Shown here one piece after another: positions 2,716 to 21,136 of a stretch of DNA of 21,136 nt. Under the pieces are notes generated by a model. That model ran no database searches. It was not told where the DNA came from and saw only the letters and a program-made list of their open reading frames with translations. Positions within the stretch are counted from its first letter, which is position 1, and each line of letters opens with the position of its first letter. The position numbers were made by a program, and so were the translations under genes. This DNA comes from a virus: the IMG/VR virus record IMGVR_UViG_3300037042_003263, positions 1-21,136 of that record. One strand, given 5' to 3'.

Positions 2716-3300
2716 TTAAATCTCCTGACTTGGGTCCCAAACTCGTGGGCGGCTATTGTTTTCTTCTGCGGTGATTACCCGCAAGTTCCAGTGGACATGT
2801 AGCCCGCAAACCGTTTTTCCCCGCAAGGGGACCATGTGGTCCACTTCGTGTTTGACGCCAGTCGCAGCAGTCATGTCGGAAGCATTTTTGTAAATGCGCC
2901 CAGTGCGCCCAGTGCGCCCAGCATCTGCGCTAGACAGCCATTCCGGTGTGGCATTTAACCGAAACGCAATCCTTTCCATAGCATCTTGGCGCACACGATG
3001 CGGGTTCGCTTTTTTCCACGCCGCCTTCATCTCGGCATGAGCCGCCTTGTTTGTTGACTGCCATGATGTCCCCTCCGCCCGTTTCTGGGCTTCGTGGACG
3101 CGCGCCTTTTCCCGAATCACATCACCGTTCTTGGCGTAGTGATTTCTGGTGGCCCTTCTGCCCCATGCGCGCTGGCACTCAATGCAAGAACGGCGTGCCG
3201 TAGACCGCTCGCACACATGGCCTGCTTTGCAGGGCTGGCCGGTGAAGTACCGATCAGCACCGCATCGCTTGGCTTCTGTGTATGAGGACGGCATGTTCAT
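2716..3300 (-). CDS. Free-standing HNH endonuclease, homing type
   Basis: A 194-aa protein. The N-terminus carries Cys pairs (C-x9-C-x5-C and C-x2-C spacing, about residues 13-42), likely a zinc-binding treble-clef/ribbon module. The middle is a basic helical linker. The C-terminus has the HNH core: V-D-H-M-V-P-L (first His, about residue 153), C-G-L-H-V-H-W-N-L (Asn about residue 171) and a final N-N-S-R. Freestanding HNH enzymes of this kind are mobile genes in phages. It is wedged between the major capsid gene and the beta-helix gene with 24-bp and 1-bp gaps. A short in-frame triplet repeat (R-T-G-R-T-G-R, bases 2903-2932) lies before the HNH core. Start at 3300 or 3294; neither has a strong ribosome site. 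Confidence 0.85.
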   Translation of the reverse strand: MNMPSSYTEAKRCGADRYFTGQPCKAGHVCERSTARRSCIECQRAWGRRATRNHYAKNGDVIREKARVHEAQKRAEGTSWQSTNKAAHAEMKAAWKKANPHRVRQDAMERIAFRLNATPEWLSSADAGRTGRTGRIYKNASDMTAATGVKHEVDHMVPLRGKTVCGLHVHWNLRVITAEENNSRPRVWDPSQEI

Positions 3301-11226: not shown

Positions 11227-11417
11227 GGCGTCGTCTCCGTTGGTTTTTCCAACACCTGACAGCGATGGCAGATGAACGCGCCCGGCTCCGGCTCGAGCCA
11301 TCTGGCCGCCCGGGCGAAGCGTGTGAGGGCGTCCGTGTTCAGCGCGGCCGTCGATAGTTCGACCCCGCACCGGTCGCAGGCGGCGATGTAATCGGTAATC
11401 CGGCGTTCTTTGATCAT
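11223..11417 (-). CDS. Small zinc-ribbon protein
   Basis: A 64-aa protein coupled to the large-terminase stop by ATGA and to the next gene by another ATGA. It has two Cys pairs, C-D-R-C (residues about 14-17) and C-H-R-C (about 50-53), a typical zinc-ribbon spacing. The lead is basic (M-I-K-E-R-R). It may bind nucleic acid or protein; no specific family recognised. Confidence 0.62.
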   Translation of the reverse strand: MIKERRITDYIAACDRCGVELSTAALNTDALTRFARAARWLEPEPGAFICHRCQVLEKPTETTP

Positions 11418-12628
11418 CCGTAAATAGCCTCCGGTATATCGCGCACCTCATCCGGCGGCGGCACATTGGCGTCATCCGATCGCCACACCCAGCCGGATTC
11501 CTGCGCCCTGATAATAGCCTGTGTCATGGTATCCACCAAATCTCGGCTGGCGCCCTTCGGAAAACTCGCGAACTGCGACAGCGCCACGTCCGCAAAATGC
11601 CGCGGGCGCGTGAAATCCGGCGGTAGGCCCGGCACCCAGATATGGCCGCTTTCCAGCGTCGGCGTCGTGAACCGCACGCGCTGCGTCTTGTCGCCGTACC
11701 GATCGGGATTGAACCCTGACACCGTGACACCCGCCCGCTGCAGATCGCGGATGAGGATCTTACCCGTCGTCTTATCTTCCACCAGGATCATATCCGGTTT
11801 CAGCGCACGCTTGGCAGGCTTCGGCGGCTTGTCCAAATCCCCGTCGTCCAGGTAGTTTTTCGACAGGCGCTTGGCGTGCTCGCGGAGTTCATTGTATTCA
11901 CACCGCTTGCGCCATGCCGCCAGAAGGATCATATTCGGCAGTTCGTGCTGGTCCTTGAACACACCCCATGTCGTGCAGGCGTTGAACGCCGCCTCCTTTT
12001 TTTCCGACAGCGCGGTATCCCACGATTGGATGATGTAATCCAGTTTCGGGGTCGCTTCCTGCGTCCACAGCCGGAACCATTTCCGTTTGATAATCCCGCC
12101 TTCGCCGGGCGCCGGGCGTTGTTGAAGCTGGCCGGAGATGTTGTATTCGGTGCGCAGTTCTCGTTTCAGCCGGTCGAGTTCCGGGCGACCGACGCGCTCG
12201 GGCCATAGCAGGTCGTTCTCTTCCTTGCGCGGGTCACGCCATTTCTTGCCGTTCGTCGACGGCAGCACGACGGTCACGCACCGACTGCCCGGCTCGAATT
12301 CCATGGGCAGCCTCAGATGCACCCAGCCGTTATCCTTGGCGGACGTGATGATGCCACTCAGATCCTTCTCGTGAATGCGCTGCTGCACGACGATGCGGCG
12401 ACCGGTCCGGAAGTCGTTCAAGCGCGTCGGCATGACATCTTCCCAGAAATGCTGCACGACATCGAGGCCGGCTTCGCTGACGTCGGAGGCCGAGTTGGGA
12501 TCGTCTAGACAGTTGTGGACTAGAATCCCATTGGCGTAGTAGTTGCGATTGTTGGCGACGCTGATGTTGTAGACCGGCGCCGCTGCTGACGACAATTTCC
12601 TGACGGATGTGACCTTAGAAGTTTTCAC
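11414..12628 (-). CDS. terL: Large terminase, C-terminal half, with C-terminal split intein at its start
   Basis: A 404-aa protein starting with GTG at 12628; AGGTGA lies just upstream, inside the endonuclease gene, which it overlaps by 14 bp. Residues 1-39 are the C-intein: block F (V-Y-N-I-S-V-A-N-N-R-N-Y-Y-A-N-G, 19-34) and block G (I-L-V-H-N, ending at Asn39), followed by the +1 residue Cys40. Residues 40-404 are terminase: L-D-D-P (end of Walker B, 41-44), the coupling segment V-Q-Q-R-I-H-E-K-D-L, and the RNase-H-like nuclease with S-W-D-T-A (Asp204), V-E-D-K-T-T-G (Glu284) and R-D-L-V-D (Asp363/Asp366). After trans-splicing to the product of 14332-13520 the mature terminase would be 539 aa. 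The tail is joined to the zinc-ribbon gene by ATGA. Confidence 0.9.
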   Translation of the reverse strand: MKTSKVTSVRKLSSAAAPVYNISVANNRNYYANGILVHNCLDDPNSASDVSEAGLDVVQHFWEDVMPTRLNDFRTGRRIVVQQRIHEKDLSGIITSAKDNGWVHLRLPMEFEPGSRCVTVVLPSTNGKKWRDPRKEENDLLWPERVGRPELDRLKRELRTEYNISGQLQQRPAPGEGGIIKRKWFRLWTQEATPKLDYIIQSWDTALSEKKEAAFNACTTWGVFKDQHELPNMILLAAWRKRCEYNELREHAKRLSKNYLDDGDLDKPPKPAKRALKPDMILVEDKTTGKILIRDLQRAGVTVSGFNPDRYGDKTQRVRFTTPTLESGHIWVPGLPPDFTRPRHFADVALSQFASFPKGASRDLVDTMTQAIIRAQESGWVWRSDDANVPPPDEVRDIPEAIYG

Positions 12629-13810
12629 AGTTCACCTGCTTTATCCACCCGCGGTCTATCGCCCGCTCAAATTCTCTCCCAAGCCATCCGCGCCGTATCG
12701 CATCGATCGCTGAAAACGGATTCGGCAATAGCGGTATTGACGATTGCAACAACCCACCGCGATCATATTTTGAGAGCACCGGCGCGCCTGACTTTACAAA
12801 GACGCGGTTCTTAAACTTAGAAAGCGAGTGTGCGATTTGTAGACGCATCTCTGGATCAGCCATAACCCTCTTCTGGTTCTCGGACAATTTCTTCAACTCA
12901 TCCGGATTGGATAGGCGCGCAAGATTTCTCTGTCGGGCGCCTTCTCTAAAGTCTGGATTGTCCCAATGCTTCGCGCGCAGCCGTCTCTTTACATCGGTTT
13001 TGTTTTTTGAAAATGCGAACCCCATCTGCAATGGCTTCTGGCGGGCGGACAAAATCATGGCCCGGTACTCCGGGTCGGCCCACTTTTGCTTAATGCTCTC
13101 TGCCCGCTGCGCTTTTCTTTCTTCAGTCCAGTACTGTTTTTGAATTTCCAGGTTTTTCTTCATGGCAGATGGCGTTTTGTGAGTGCGAGATAATTTCTTT
13201 CTGCGATTTATCTCCGTCTCGGAGGCCGCCCCGTGTACGCCATCGCCGCCGATCGTATTGTTGTAGCCGTTCGGCCACTTTGAATTAAACGCCACGATGG
13301 CCTTGATCTCTAGGTCCTTCAGATAATCGGCGTCGTTAGCAATCACCAAAACTCTTTTCTTGATGGTATCCGCACCATATTTTTTAATTGCCTTGGCGAG
13401 ATATGTTTTGTTCCGCACCGATGCCGAGACGTGTTGCTTAAACCGCCACTCTATGTCGCGCGTAGTTATGCCGACATACTTCTTGTCATTCGGGAATGTC
13501 AGCATGTACAGGCAACCCATCAGAACCTAACCACTTCATCGCCGTCACAAATTTCCGATGCCCTAATATATCCCTTTCCAACCACAAACACCGAATGATT
13601 TTCCGTTAGGCGCAGTGTTGTTCCATCGTCCAGTTCAATCTCCACCATGTCGGTCGCATGATTGGCGTGCCGCATTTCAATTTGGCGCAACTCGGATAGG
13701 CAAAGGTCGTGATTGAAAGACCAGACTGCACCACACCACGAGTGTTCCACGATATCGCCAATCATCATCGGACCGCTTTCCGTGCTGATCATCGCGTCAT
13801 ACGGCAGGCA
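12512..13810 (-). mobile_element. Split intein plus homing endonuclease cassette inserted in terL
   Basis: The element spans from intein Cys1 (13810) to the intein's last Asn (12512). It consists of N-intein (96 codons, 13810-13523, then TGA), the GIY-YIG gene (13520-12615) and the C-intein (39 codons, 12628-12512). The 96+39 residues equal a normal mini-intein of 135 aa with all splice residues present: Cys1, T-x-x-H, His-Asn at the end, and +1 Cys. Removing it joins G-A-D-I-F to C-L-D-D-P, giving an uninterrupted terminase Walker B region. The two terminase halves are in the same reading frame; the endonuclease is in another. Arrangements of split intein plus endonuclease ('fractured genes') are known from environmental phage DNA; this is the same logic in a terminase. 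Confidence 0.87.
12615..13520 (-). CDS. Free-standing GIY-YIG homing endonuclease between the two intein halves
   Basis: A 301-aa protein. The GIY-YIG domain spans about residues 1-95: L-Y-M-L (Tyr5) in place of GIY, K-K-Y-V-G-I-T (Tyr15), R-F-K-Q-H (Arg26 is the likely catalytic Arg), L-E-I-K-A-I (catalytic Glu71) and G-Y-N-N-T-I-G-G-D-G (about 85-94). Residues 105-240 are basic, with repeated W/x-D/N-P-E/D-x-R patches (A-D-P-E-Y-R, D-N-P-D-F-R, A-D-P-E-M-R), resembling NUMOD-type DNA-binding repeats. Its ATG overlaps the TGA of the terminase N-half (TGATG), and its end overlaps the GTG of the C-half by 14 bp. The DNA is visibly richer in A+T than its neighbours, a sign of recent arrival. 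It probably cuts intein-less terminase genes to drive spread of the whole insert. Confidence 0.9.
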   Translation of the reverse strand: MGCLYMLTFPNDKKYVGITTRDIEWRFKQHVSASVRNKTYLAKAIKKYGADTIKKRVLVIANDADYLKDLEIKAIVAFNSKWPNGYNNTIGGDGVHGAASETEINRRKKLSRTHKTPSAMKKNLEIQKQYWTEERKAQRAESIKQKWADPEYRAMILSARQKPLQMGFAFSKNKTDVKRRLRAKHWDNPDFREGARQRNLARLSNPDELKKLSENQKRVMADPEMRLQIAHSLSKFKNRVFVKSGAPVLSKYDRGGLLQSSIPLLPNPFSAIDAIRRGWLGREFERAIDRGWIKQVNCENF

Positions 13811-14332
13811 AAAAATATCCGCGCCTTCCCCCGTGACCGTGCCGGTAATCGACGACGTGACGCGATACCCGCCGGCCGTATTGTCGAACCGCACCTTCGT
13901 GTTCTGGTCGAGCGCCAGCGTGAACGCCGACCCCCATCTGCGCTGATACCAGTCTGATTCCAGCACGCGGCGCGACCGAACGTGATCGCGTCCGGAGAGC
14001 TTATCCGAATAGCTGACATACATGAACTGCAATTGCGGATGATCGATCCATGCCCATGGCACGAGGGCGACGGATACCAATGAGGATTTGCTGGTCCGCG
14101 GCGGTTGATTGATCAGCAGATCGCGTATCTGCCCGTCGACGACGGCCTGGACGTGCTCGGCAATAGCACCGATCGCCCAGCCCCCTATGAACGGCCGAGC
14201 GCCTTCCCATTGTGGCCACGCCTGCTGCAGAAATTCATACAGACTCCCGCGCGCTGCCCGGCGCCGCATCAGTTCCTGCGCGGCTTCCTCCGGTGTCGGC
14301 GGTTTCAGGATGGCGGTCACGCGCGCATCCAC
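13520..14332 (-). CDS. terL: Large terminase, N-terminal half, ending in the N-terminal split intein
   Basis: A 270-aa protein. Residues 1-174 are the terminase ATPase N-terminal part: the P-loop-type motif Q-P-P-R-T-S-K-S-S-L (76-85), F-M-Y-V-S-Y-S (103-109), and G-E-G-A-D-I-F (168-174), the first part of Walker B. Residues 175-270 are the N-intein: Cys175 is the intein's first residue (block A C-L-P-Y-D-A-M-I), followed by E-L-D-D-G-T-T-L and block B T-E-N-H-S-V-F-V-V (Thr243, His246), G-Y-I-R-A-S-E and G-D-E-V-V. The frame then stops, at the usual split point of natural split inteins. Alone this half lacks the acidic residues of Walker B and the nuclease. It overlaps the end of the glycosyltransferase gene by 16 bp. 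Confidence 0.9.
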   Translation of the reverse strand: MDARVTAILKPPTPEEAAQELMRRRAARGSLYEFLQQAWPQWEGARPFIGGWAIGAIAEHVQAVVDGQIRDLLINQPPRTSKSSLVSVALVPWAWIDHPQLQFMYVSYSDKLSGRDHVRSRRVLESDWYQRRWGSAFTLALDQNTKVRFDNTAGGYRVTSSITGTVTGEGADIFCLPYDAMISTESGPMMIGDIVEHSWCGAVWSFNHDLCLSELRQIEMRHANHATDMVEIELDDGTTLRLTENHSVFVVGKGYIRASEICDGDEVVRF

Positions 14333-15351
14333 TCCCCATTCCTGACAATCCGTTCATCGTTCGGCGCCATCTCAACAGCCTTCTCCCAATACCCGCGCGC
14401 GGCGTCCTTCAGGCCCATATGCCACGCCGCGACGCTCGCGATATCGTAGGCACCATAGCCCCATGCTTCGGCTGTGACCAGATAGTGCCCGGGCCGTTCC
14501 GTGATCGACAGCGCCCGCGTCGCCGCCTGCAATGCGCCGATCCAATCGTTTCGTTTCAGTCGGAACTGCGCCAGTTCATACCACGCGTCGCGACTGTACG
14601 GCGCTTCTGATACAGCACCCAGATACCAGCCTTCGTCGCCGGTCATGCGCCCGAGAAACCGCATGCTGGCCGCCCGCTCCTCGTTCCATTTCGCGGTCGG
14701 CAGTGTCAGGTGGCGCTGCAGTTCCGCAATGCCTTCCTCGGTGCGACCCTGAAACATATATTCGCGCCCGAGATAATGGGATGCCCGGTCGTCCATCGGG
14801 TTTTCGCGGACCGAGAGTTCCAGCAGCGGCAGATACGAACTGCGGGGTTTGCTGTCGTCCGCGTGATGGTGGATCAGCGTCGCCGTGGTCGTGACGATGT
14901 GTTCCGCGCCGGATGGGCAGATCGTTTCGTGGACGGCGCCCTTCCACTGGTAGCCGTTGCGATGGTGCGCGCGGTCGGCCTGGAATTGCACGTTCGGCGT
15001 GCCGTCGGCATTCCAGTTCCAGACGTAGTTATAGCGCAGGCGCGTTGCTTCCGGCGTCCAGACAGATTCGACGATCTCACGCCAGCCGGGCACCAGGATT
15101 TCATCGAGGTCGAGGGTGATGCAGAGGTCGATGTCGGCGGGCAGCAGAGCGAGTGCCGCGTTGCGGGCGTGGTCGAAGCGCCAGGGGGAGATGTGGATGC
15201 GGTACACGCACGGGTACGGCGGCATGTTCCTCGTGGCGTCCGTCGACCCCGTGTCTGCCAGCAAAATACGGTCCGCGTCGCTGGCAGATTTCGCCCACCG
15301 CTCGACGTGCTTCTCTTCATTCAATGCAATCGCCGCAACCGCAATTCTCAT
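14317..15351 (-). CDS. GT2-type glycosyltransferase with TPR-like C-terminal domain
   Basis: A 344-aa protein; its ATG overlaps the previous TGA (ATGA). Residues 1-165 form a GT-A glycosyltransferase domain: A-L-N-E-E-K (9-14), A-D-T-G-S-T-D (32-38), F-D-H-A-R-N-A (59-65), metal/nucleotide-sugar motif D-L-D-E (81-84) and W-K-G-A-V-H-E (136-142). Residues about 185-340 are TPR-like helical repeats (S-H-Y-L-G-R-E-Y, A-W-Y-E-L-A-Q-F, A-R-G-Y-W-E-K-A-V-E-M-A-P-N). This combination is known in bacterial sugar-transferring enzymes related to cell-surface and peptide glycosylation. It is soluble with no signal. Lying between small and large terminase genes, it may glycosylate virion protein, DNA or a host surface; the target cannot be read from the sequence. 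Confidence 0.82.
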   Translation of the reverse strand: MRIAVAAIALNEEKHVERWAKSASDADRILLADTGSTDATRNMPPYPCVYRIHISPWRFDHARNAALALLPADIDLCITLDLDEILVPGWREIVESVWTPEATRLRYNYVWNWNADGTPNVQFQADRAHHRNGYQWKGAVHETICPSGAEHIVTTTATLIHHHADDSKPRSSYLPLLELSVRENPMDDRASHYLGREYMFQGRTEEGIAELQRHLTLPTAKWNEERAASMRFLGRMTGDEGWYLGAVSEAPYSRDAWYELAQFRLKRNDWIGALQAATRALSITERPGHYLVTAEAWGYGAYDIASVAAWHMGLKDAARGYWEKAVEMAPNDERIVRNGEWMRA

Positions 15352-15590
15352 CTCCGCTTCCTTCTACCAATCCAAGCCTCAGACGGCAGGACCGTATCCA
15401 CCACATGCACGGCACCCTGCTTCTTCAGATATTCCAGCAGGTCCATTAGGTCCATTTCCGTAATATTGTTGCCACATTCATTATAGCAGCGTATCACCAG
15501 ACGGTCGTTCGACCGCATGCGCAATTCGACCTGCATTTCTTCACAATATTCCCTGACCGGAATCGTAGCCAGCGCGACAGACTCACTCAT
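15348..15590 (-). CDS. 80-aa hypothetical protein in the packaging module
   Basis: Start taken at the ATG at 15590, with GAGGTGG immediately before it and an 8-bp overlap with the small terminase gene. The protein has a short beta-type middle (V-E-L-R-M-R-S-N-D-R-L-V-I-R-C-Y) and an acidic helix (M-D-L-M-D-L-L-E-Y-L-K-K), ending in a basic G-R-R-K-R-R. Three Cys are present but not in a clear zinc pattern. No family recognised. It is coupled to the glycosyltransferase by ATGA. Confidence 0.6.
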   Translation of the reverse strand: MSESVALATIPVREYCEEMQVELRMRSNDRLVIRCYNECGNNITEMDLMDLLEYLKKQGAVHVVDTVLPSEAWIGRRKRR

Positions 15591-16047
15591 CCTCCACCTC
15601 GATAACATCCTTGCTGATATCCTTGGACGACGCGATGCGCATCAATTGCTCGTCAGTCATCATCTCGGGCCGAAATCCGTGAGTGACCGAAATATTTGTC
15701 TGCAACAGCCCGAGTAACATCGACTGCAATTTTTTCGCGCCGATCGCGCTGGCATGTTGGCCGTCGTCCAGCGCGCGCTGAAACACGGTTTCCATATCCG
15801 CCACGATACTATCCCGCGTGACCTCCAGCGGCTGCATGCTCGTCTCAATCCGCTCCAGCGCCTTCAACGCGGCGACGATCTCCGGCTTCTGCAACTGCCT
15901 GTTGGCCACCACCGTGATCGGATAGCGCGCGTCGCGGATGCCTGCCCGGATGCACGCCTGCACGGCGTCGCCGGTCAGCCGGTACTGTTCGACGAATACC
16001 GCGTCCTTGTCGGATTGATCGTCGGCGTCGGTGCGGTCGGGGATCAT
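15583..16047 (-). CDS. terS: Terminase small subunit
   Basis: A 154-aa protein with ATGA coupling to the gene before it. Residues about 16-65 match the DNA-binding head of the Terminase_2-type small subunit: A-V-F-V-E-Q-Y-R-L-T-G-D-A-V-Q-A-C-I-R-A-G-I, then a helix and L-Q-K-P-E-I-V-A-A-L. The middle is a long helical segment (oligomerisation, about 65-115) and the tail is acidic (I-E-V-E-D-E). It recognises the packaging site and stimulates the large subunit. Genomic order (small subunit, two genes, large subunit) supports the call. Confidence 0.8.
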   Translation of the reverse strand: MIPDRTDADDQSDKDAVFVEQYRLTGDAVQACIRAGIRDARYPITVVANRQLQKPEIVAALKALERIETSMQPLEVTRDSIVADMETVFQRALDDGQHASAIGAKKLQSMLLGLLQTNISVTHGFRPEMMTDEQLMRIASSKDISKDVIEVEDE

Positions 16048-16715: not shown

Positions 16716-16893
16716 CCCCCACCTCCTTCTCATACTCCGCCGCCAGAAACCGCGCCAATGCCAGTTCAAACACGTCGCACTTCTTCACCTTCCGCCGACG
16801 GCAGAACCCGTCCAGCCGCGTCACCAGATCCAGCGGCAGGTCGGTCGCGATCTTCACCTTCAGCGTGCGCTCGGAAACGGGCTTACGGGGCAT
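16705..16893 (-). CDS. Ribbon-helix-helix-type DNA-binding protein, putative
   Basis: A 62-aa protein if started at 16893 (M-P-R-K-P); the ATG at 16917 would add eight residues, and neither start has a strong ribosome site. The pattern of a basic strand T-L-K-V-K-I-A-T, then D-L-P-L-D-L-V-T-R-L-D-G-F-C, a basic turn R-R-R-K-V-K-K, and helix D-V-F-E-L-A-L-A-R-F-L is that of small CopG/Arc-like regulators. Such proteins bind operators as dimers. Its target is unknown; the fold call rests on pattern only. Confidence 0.55.
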   Translation of the reverse strand: MPRKPVSERTLKVKIATDLPLDLVTRLDGFCRRRKVKKCDVFELALARFLAAEYEKEVGDGG

Positions 16894-17203
16894 GCTGCTG
16901 TCCGTTCCGTCGGGCATGATACGCCCAAACCAAATTCATCTTCTTCGCCCGCGCGATCACGGAGGACGGCGAGCGGCCCGGCAGTTCCGCGGCAATTTCC
17001 CTAGCCGGGGCGCCCTCCGCCATCATGCGCTGCAGCGTCTCATTCTCAGTGTCAGAATATTCCTCGCGGCCACGAACCGGCTGCAGCCCCAGCATATCCA
17101 GTCGCCGTTGCAGCATCGTCCAGTCGAACCCGGTTTCGCGCATCATATGCGCCTTCGTGTGGCCCGCCTCGACCATGCGCCGGATATCCGCCAGTGATCT
17201 CAT
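16883..17203 (-). CDS. Small HTH protein, GcrA/SANT-like C-terminal half
   Basis: Start at the ATG at 17203, overlapping the TGA of the upstream gene (ATGA); a longer open frame to 17386 is out-of-frame shadow. The 106-aa product has two helical modules. The first (M-R-S-L-A-D-I-R-R-M-V-E-A-G-H-T) looks like a short winged or simple HTH. The second (Y-S-D-T-E-N-E-T-L-Q-R-M-M-A-E-G, then A-R-E-I-A-A-E-L-P-G-R-S-P-S-S-V-I-A-R-A-K-K) resembles the GcrA/Myb-SANT HTH that is common in Alphaproteobacteria and their phages. Probably a transcription regulator; target unknown. Confidence 0.6.
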   Translation of the reverse strand: MRSLADIRRMVEAGHTKAHMMRETGFDWTMLQRRLDMLGLQPVRGREEYSDTENETLQRMMAEGAPAREIAAELPGRSPSSVIARAKKMNLVWAYHARRNGQQHAP

Positions 17204-17370
17204 TCTCTTACCTTTTCCAGCCAGTACCGCGCCGTGATCGTCGCCGGCAGCGATCCGATCTGCTGCCACTGCCTGAGCACCGGTCGACCGGCGTGTTCGC
17301 CGATATCCAGCCACGTCACGGTTTCCGCCGTCCCGATCTGCCGGATCGACAGGGTGGTGCGATCGAACAT
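17200..17370 (-). CDS. 56-aa hypothetical protein
   Basis: Found by hand translation from the ATG at 17370, which overlaps the last base of the upstream stop; GGAGGGAAGTG lies just before it. The product (M-F-D-R-T-T-L-S-I-R-Q-I-G) has a beta-rich start and a helical end (T-A-R-Y-W-L-E-K-V-R-E). No Cys, no motif known to me. It is coupled to the HTH gene by ATGA. Confidence 0.58.
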   Translation of the reverse strand: MFDRTTLSIRQIGTAETVTWLDIGEHAGRPVLRQWQQIGSLPATITARYWLEKVRE

Positions 17371-17558
17371 CACTTCCCTCCATCATCTTCCCACCGGCCC
17401 ATCTGGGTCCGGCGAAACTTCAGTTCACGGCGCGCGGCCAATAACTCCTTCGCGTGGGCAACAACGTGCTTACGTAGTGGTGGCCCGGCATTGCGCATCA
17501 TTTCCGCCAGCACATCGGCTCTGACACGCACCAGCCCGTCGCTATACCGCGCGCGCAT
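17370..17558 (-). CDS. 62-aa basic hypothetical protein
   Basis: Start at the ATG at 17558, overlapping the upstream TGA (TGATG). The protein is basic and mostly helical: V-R-A-D-V-L-A-E-M-M-R-N-A-G-P-P-L-R-K-H-V-V-A-H-A-K-E-L-L-A-A-R-R. The open frame continues upstream to 17603 without a ribosome site. No family recognised. Confidence 0.55.
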   Translation of the reverse strand: MRARYSDGLVRVRADVLAEMMRNAGPPLRKHVVAHAKELLAARRELKFRRTQMGRWEDDGGK

Positions 17559-20515: not shown

Positions 20516-20593
20516 CGCCGCTATTACACAACTGTATTTCTACGGATACGCAAGCCAAATACGCAGGAATACATTCCATGGACCACAACATAA

Positions 20594-20619
20594 CCCCTAC
20601 CCCCCTACCCCACCCCCCC
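20594..20619 (-). other. Strong G-quadruplex motif on the minus strand
   Basis: Four C-runs of 4, 6, 4 and 7 bases (20594-20597, 20600-20605, 20608-20611, 20613-20619) are separated by TA, TA and A. The minus strand therefore has four G-runs of at least four with one- or two-base loops, a textbook intramolecular G-quadruplex; the plus strand could form an i-motif. It lies in a gap without genes (20516-20711). Confidence 0.75.
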
Positions 20620-20664
20620 ACTACATCTTGTGTTTACTAAATTTTGCAAAACTCACATACGCAA

Positions 20665-20680
20665 GTGAACGCTCGTTCAC
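20665..20680. promoter_or_regulatory. Perfect palindromic operator candidate between two TACGCAAG repeats
   Basis: GTGAACGCTCGTTCAC has 7-bp arms (GTGAACG/CGTTCAC) around two bases. It abuts one TACGCAAG copy (ending at 20665) and another begins four bases after it. It is 31 bp upstream of the ATG at 20712. The geometry is that of a dimer-binding site such as those of TetR- or Cro/CI-like repressors. Confidence 0.6.
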
Positions 20681-20711
20681 ATTTACGCAAGCGTAACAAA
20701 TGAGGCTCAAA

Positions 20712-20879
20712 ATGGACACCCTGAACCCGACCGATTACCCAACCCAAGACGCCTACCTGCAGGCAATGCGGCTCAAATATCACACGCGCCACAGGACCAA
20801 GGATCAGGCCGGCATCGCGGATCTGCCGCTATTTCAGACCGACCTCGAGGAGTTCACCAGCCAGACCCCGCACGAATAG
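20712..20879 (+). CDS. 55-aa hypothetical protein
   Basis: Found by hand translation. The ATG at 20712 has GAGG six bases before it. The product begins M-D-T-L-N-P-T-D-Y-P-T-Q-D-A-Y-L-Q-A-M-R-L-K-Y-H-T-R-H-R and ends acidic (F-Q-T-D-L-E-E-F). It looks like a small soluble helical protein. Control is probably through the palindrome and repeats just upstream; an intrinsic terminator follows 68 bases after the stop. Confidence 0.6.
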   Translation: MDTLNPTDYPTQDAYLQAMRLKYHTRHRTKDQAGIADLPLFQTDLEEFTSQTPHE

Positions 20880-20947
20880 GCCCACAACGGCCCGGAAACA
20901 GGGCTCCATCGCCCGCTGACACCACGCCAGCTACCACCCTACCTGAC

Positions 20948-20984
20948 ACGGCGCCCGGCCACCACCGCGGCGCCGTTTCTCTTG
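20948..20984 (+). terminator. Intrinsic terminator of the plus-strand genes
   Basis: ACGGCGCC (20948-20955) pairs perfectly with GGCGCCGT (20969-20976) around a 13-base loop, and TTTCTCTT follows. The stem is strong; the T-run is interrupted. It would end transcripts from the plus-strand cluster. Confidence 0.65.
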
Positions 20985-21099
20985 CCTGGATTAAGCCGCC
21001 TGTCGCCTGGCAACATCGCCCCGGATCGCCGTCTGTCAACCGCGGCGAGCTTTACGCAAGCGCCGACCTAACAACACATAACACACACTATACTGTGCT

Positions 21100-21136
21100 G
21101 TAATGCCGGTAATGAAATGTAATGGACTTGTAATGG
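21100..21136 (+). repeat. GTAATG tandem repeats running off the right edge
   Basis: GTAATG starts at 21100, 21109, 21119 and 21130, about one helical turn apart each time. The last copy reaches the window edge, so the array may continue. Possible iterons or a regulator array; no further feature is seen in 20985-21099 except the TACGCAAG copy at 21053. Confidence 0.5.

Follow-up and report, generated by a model that had tools for sequence, protein, structure and literature searches.

Genomic setting of the right-end region

The right end of an IMG/VR viral record carries a small ORF, a terminator-like hairpin, two inverted repeats, an AT-rich spot and two classes of short direct repeat within a non-coding stretch that is strongly A+C-rich (about 65%). 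The record is linear, and the window (the whole 21,136-base stretch of DNA that was analysed) is probably a fragment of a phage genome; the genomes of its relatives are 52-65 kb long, which puts the visible share of this genome at about a third. The source is predicted to be a roughly 60-kb podovirus-like phage, a distant relative of HTVC023P-type pelagiphages, DSL-LC04, and MinM2/Pag-Yong1. The major capsid protein has relatives at 70% and the portal at 50%; the relatives with annotation, whose portals are about 33-39% identical, are DSL-LC04, HTVC027P, 023Pt_psg01, MinM2/Pag-Yong1, and Roseobacter CRP phages.

The leftward genes encode terminase, portal, a scaffold-like protein, and the major capsid protein. 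The rightward small genes from 19300 on, e1-e5 among them, gave no recognised domains or relatives. No repressor, integrase or initiator gene was recognised in the window; most early genes fall beyond the contig, and the relatives encode AEP-type or Toprim/DnaB primases. The window is a fragment with a strand switch, and its own GC skew is therefore uninformative.

Several other features of the contig are recorded here in their own right. The large terminase gene (11414-14332, minus strand) is fractured: the N-terminal part of TerL with an intein N-half lies at 13520-14332, a GIY-YIG endonuclease ORF at 12615-13520 (Pfam), and an intein C-half with the C-terminal part of TerL in an ORF with its own start at 11414-12628 (Pfam). 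The arrangement resembles a natural split intein whose two halves are separated by a homing endonuclease. A glycosyltransferase gene lies between the terminase genes (14317-15351, minus strand; phrog_13126, beta-1,4-glycosyltransferase, E 2e-99). The ORF at 16883-17386 (minus strand) weakly matches a GcrA / D5-like transcriptional regulator (Pfam E 0.001, which misses the curated cut-off; PHROG E 0.00025), a hint that the host is an alphaproteobacterium. An HNH-endonuclease-like ORF, recognised by eye, adjoins the major capsid gene (2716-3300, minus strand), and at the left end of the contig (1-449, minus strand) collagen-like GPTGPT repeats probably explain why the assembly stops there.

Features of the right-end region

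The features of the region are as follows.

20547-20554, plus strand: TACGCAAG, copy 1
20560-20567, plus strand: near copy TACGCAGG, starting 13 bp past the start of copy 1
20622-20651: the contig's most AT-rich 30-mer (23% GC), with TTTTGCAAAA at its right end
20642-20651: TTTTGCAAAA, a true 10-bp palindrome
20658-20665, plus strand: TACGCAAG, copy 2
20665-20680: inverted repeat GTGAACGCTCGTTCAC (GTGAACG-CT-CGTTCAC), 7-bp arms with a 2-bp CT centre
20683-20696: inverted repeat TTACGC-AA-GCGTAA (6+2+6), which holds copy 3
20684-20691, plus strand: TACGCAAG, copy 3
20700-20879, plus strand: small ORF e5, 59 aa from the ATG at 20700 or 55 aa from the ATG at 20712 behind GAGG
20945-20979, plus strand: terminator-like hairpin ACGGCGCC...GGCGCCGT, then TTCTCTT (z -3.5)
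21053-21060, plus strand: TACGCAAG, copy 4, inside TTTACGCAAGCG, which is common to copies 3 and 4
21100-21136, plus strand: iteron-like array of four GTAATG (at 21100, 21109, 21119, and 21130)

The 8-mers thus sit in the gap ahead of e5 and past the hairpin behind it. e5 itself was without relatives or domains in searches. The hairpin was overlooked in the first-pass annotation and missed by a simple terminator scan with a loop limit of 8. RNA family and tRNA searches of the region found none, the sigma-70-like promoter scan detected none, and a structured DNA hairpin over 20630-20720 scored no better than shuffles (z -0.28). As a side observation, window positions 20566-21099 and positions 23047-23366 of another genome (L135, OR003939) are both A+C-rich on one strand (~62-73%).

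The AT-rich stretch that had been reported beside the repeats is confirmed as the contig's lowest-GC 30-mer, and 21069-21128 is likewise among its lowest-GC 60-mers. The reported perfect 16-bp palindrome needs correction: the reverse complement of GTGAACGCTCGTTCAC is GTGAACGAGCGTTCAC, so the element is a 7+2+7 inverted repeat whose centre is not palindromic. The 6+2+6 dyad at 20683-20696 had escaped notice. The remaining TACGCAAG copies agree with this 14-mer at 9-11 of 14 positions, mostly through the 8-mer itself, and their right halves agree with it barely above chance. The dyad may be a candidate full operator of which the other copies are degenerate versions, and the TACGCAAG site is a possible dimeric operator.

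The TACGCAAG cluster

Four exact copies and one near copy of an 8-mer had been claimed for the right end, and all five are present. The exact copies are all on the plus strand, are all non-coding and span 514 bp; counted on both strands of the 21,136-base contig, TACGCAAG does not occur beyond the cluster. The concern that the 8-mer might be common genome-wide is answered accordingly for this fragment, about one third of the genome.

For this chosen 8-mer, 0.28 copies are expected in the window, and four copies were reached in none of 100 shuffles. Since TACGCAAG was picked post hoc, a fairer test accepts any 8-mer with at least four copies in 514 bp; 11 of 100 shuffled whole windows were then positive, as were 7 of 2000 when only the final 737 bases were shuffled. 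Because 11 of 100 shuffled windows match its clustering, the TACGCAAG cluster taken alone is suggestive, that is, moderately significant and not overwhelming.

The start-to-start spacing of the series, near copy included, is irregular (13, 98, 26, and 369 bp), and for this reason TACGCAAG does not resemble classical iterons. A promoter set for a phage RNA polymerase is unlikely, as TACGCAAG is absent from the contig's late region and so does not precede late genes. A collection-wide scan for close TACGCAAG pairs returned 101 contigs, among which no close relative could be recognised. Two matches near a terminase gene proved to be different things: a 16-bp tandem repeat in L094 and a duplication within an ORF in L111. 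A literature search for the 8-mer gave, among the papers listed, unrelated matches only.

The GTAATG array at the contig end

The first-pass annotation made no mention of the GTAATG array, which lies 40 bases to the right of the range it reported. The four copies are spaced 9, 10, and 11 bp apart and the array runs into the contig end, past which it may continue. When the criterion was any 6-mer occurring four times within 36 bp, with copies spaced by 8 bp or more, none of 200 shuffled windows held such an array and the real window held one, GTAATG; a paired-motif scan blind to motif and place likewise ranked GTAATG as the contig's top array.

An iteron origin is characterized by direct repeats at regular, helical-turn-like spacing and by an adjoining AT-rich element. 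Such spacing is found in the GTAATG array and is lacking in the TACGCAAG series; the AT-rich element is present, with a putative role in unwinding. The GTAATG array is thus a stronger feature than the TACGCAAG cluster and a better iteron candidate, and the iteron role formerly given to the 8-mers is better transferred to it. Searches of other viruses for the exact edge sequence and for dyad-plus-8-mer patterns gave no match, and neither other viruses with these motifs nor homologues of e1-e5 were found.

Arrays and strand asymmetry in relatives

Upstream of terL, short-motif arrays spaced at 9-11 bp occur in four relatives, each with a different sequence. L024, which is among the nearest relatives covering that side (capsid 77% over the available part, portal 49%), has nine TGTAACA in the gap upstream of terS, five forward and then four reversed, with spacings that include 9, 11, 9, and 9. 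023Pt_psg01 has seven TGGCACA beside terS (spacings include 9 and 9), MinM2 has nine GTCATAC in the annotated gap 57079-57592 (spacings include 10 and 10), and G019:C7, a Pelagibacteraceae-derived contig, has ten AATTGTA (spacings include 9, 10, 9, and 9) in a stretch that overlaps ORFs of at least 100 aa in crude gene calling, which leaves its non-coding status uncertain. Second motifs also occur in two of these genomes. Four GTTGAC-like/GTCAAC dyads flank the TGTAACA array (L024, 5794-6011), a second motif class analogous to TACGCAAG, and a GCTCGCT (AGCGAGC) array lies on the opposite side of terS from TGGCACA in 023Pt_psg01 (L138, MW574966; 15370-15460).

The relatives' arrays share with the window the 9-11-bp pair spacing, a lineage-specific motif and a comparable genomic place, ~1.5-6 kb upstream of terL. 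Their motifs are unrelated to that of the window, and the arrays extend further, with both orientations present in three of the four. In the motif-blind pair scan the L024 and G019 arrays rank first in their own genomes, whereas in 023Pt and MinM2 coding matches score equal to or above the array. The same scan found no clear non-coding paired array at this place in HTVC027P, G020, G022, and others; DSL-LC04 has a repeat-rich gap (z 7-9) that the pair scan missed and that lies away from the skew maximum. The paired geometry therefore recurs in a minority of the relatives examined and is not universal.

Strand asymmetry was assessed in 12 complete or near-complete relatives. In each, the strongest repeat window was located in the 10 kb upstream of terL, and its distance to the point where the detrended cumulative GC skew peaks over the whole genome was measured. 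The repeat window lay within 1 kb of the maximum in 4 of the 12 genomes (~0.4 expected for random places in a 60-kb genome), a count to be read with some terL starts being homology-estimated and the skew of four genomes having been viewed before the test was fixed. The three strongest arrays, those of the complete genomes among the four array-bearing relatives, lie 43, 245, and 353 bp from the maximum. When a position in the 10 kb upstream of terL is taken as given, the link to skew is weak (Fisher combined P 0.02). A bacterial-type origin lies at the minimum of cumulative GC skew; the arrays lie at the maximum, the opposite polarity. The coincidence is compatible with either a replication-linked or a packaging-linked site.

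Interpretation of the region

The reading that we favour, tentatively and as one that may well be right, makes the stretch a non-coding control region that lies to the early side of the packaging module and probably includes the edge of a replication-initiation region. Its basis is the presence of two motif clusters, a pair of dyads, a hairpin and an AT-rich spot in the place where several relatives have iteron-like arrays. A phage-coded protein would bind cooperatively to the GTAATG sites, which recur at about every helical turn, and the bound initiator would help to open the neighbouring AT-rich DNA. A second protein, probably dimeric, would bind the TACGCAAG/TTACGCAAGCGTAA sites and, as a regulator, could control a small transcription unit from e5 and a unit starting beyond the contig end. 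Counted against this reading are the visibility of only about one third of the genome, the end of the contig inside the array, the irregular TACGCAAG spacing, the negative searches for an initiator gene, for other viruses with these motifs and for homologues of e1-e5, the small share of relatives with paired geometry, the position of the arrays at the skew maximum and the weak conditional link to skew.

The earlier description of the region as an origin or repressor region holds as a class, in that the stretch is non-coding, has AT-rich DNA beside repeats and lies where relatives have iteron-like arrays. Its immunity component finds no support: neither a repressor nor an integrase could be recognised in the window, and the adjacent small genes are without relatives or domains. 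For the visible third of the genome, an immunity region of a temperate phage is rejected, as operator-like dyads occur with no repressor, integrase or prophage context; the relatives found are free phage genomes or mostly phage-sized contigs.

The possible, if unlikely, alternative that survives best is control of transcription only, with TACGCAAG and the dyads as operators through which a phage regulator would act on early promoters, before e5 and after the terminator, and with no role in replication. The placement of the sites fits this, since e5 is closely preceded by copies 2 and 3, copy 3 forms a full dyad, and copy 4 lies past the terminator-like hairpin and upstream of TATACT; in DSL-LC04, moreover, the repeat-rich gap adjoins a gene annotated as an HTH regulator (Pfam: no domain). 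However, no sigma-70-like promoter was detected, and the helical-turn spacing of GTAATG, the equivalents in relatives and the skew coincidence are left unexplained.

It is improbable that the repeats cluster by chance in a non-coding stretch of odd, A+C-rich composition. The composition (about 65% A+C) and the 11% of shuffled windows with an 8-mer cluster as good as TACGCAAG would allow it, as would the lack of a recognisable close relative among the 101 contigs with close TACGCAAG pairs, but the AT minimum, the dyads, the relatives' equivalents and the four GTAATG copies, matched in 0 of 200 shuffles, would all have to come together by chance.

A packaging site (pac or cos), in which arrays near the terminase genes are binding sites for the small terminase, is quite improbable: the relatives' arrays do lie near terminase genes, on both sides of terS in 023Pt, the skew changes there, and the MinM2 array comes just after an unnamed gene in the expected terS place, shortly before terL, but that gene is without a terS family match, the DSL-LC04 array is about 3 kb from terS, and 4.5-5 kb separate the window's array from the terS-like gene (15583-16047).

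Significance for the phage group

As a control region combining a putative initiation edge with regulatory sites, the locus is an instance of an already known kind; its greater interest is as part of a possible family-wide element. It is conceivable, if doubtful, that an element upstream of terL keeps its architecture (~7-bp sites, 9-11-bp spacing, and a skew switch) while the word that is recognised changes completely between lineages. The window would then show one word, GTAATG, together with a second class, TACGCAAG. If this is true, a large, environmentally common podovirus group would have a fast-evolving, self-specific initiator or packaging protein, and the combination of similar layout with unrelated motifs would make initiator-site co-evolution tractable here. 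A literature search, in which one HTVC023P-type paper was examined, turned up no published replication origin for this group, to which abundant pelagiphages belong. Should the arrays prove to be origins or packaging sites, the place upstream of terL would be a simple rule for finding them in metagenomic genomes.

Comparison with known systems

The phage lambda origin contains four 19-bp repeats bound by the O protein (PMC3985674), and iteron plasmids have origins of the kind represented by the oriV of RK2-type plasmids (PMC4980987). The window resembles both in having tandem short repeats beside AT-rich DNA, in its case in a phage early region. It differs in its 6-8-bp motif and 9-11-bp spacing, in having no recognised initiator gene, and in that its array is not inside a gene and is cut by the contig end. 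The origin of the PLE satellite, a RepA_N system, is non-coding and has repeat classes 1-4, only one of which is the iteron (PMC7145576). The window differs from it in that no RepA_N gene is seen and the repeats are shorter; the two are alike in being non-coding regions with more than one class of repeat.
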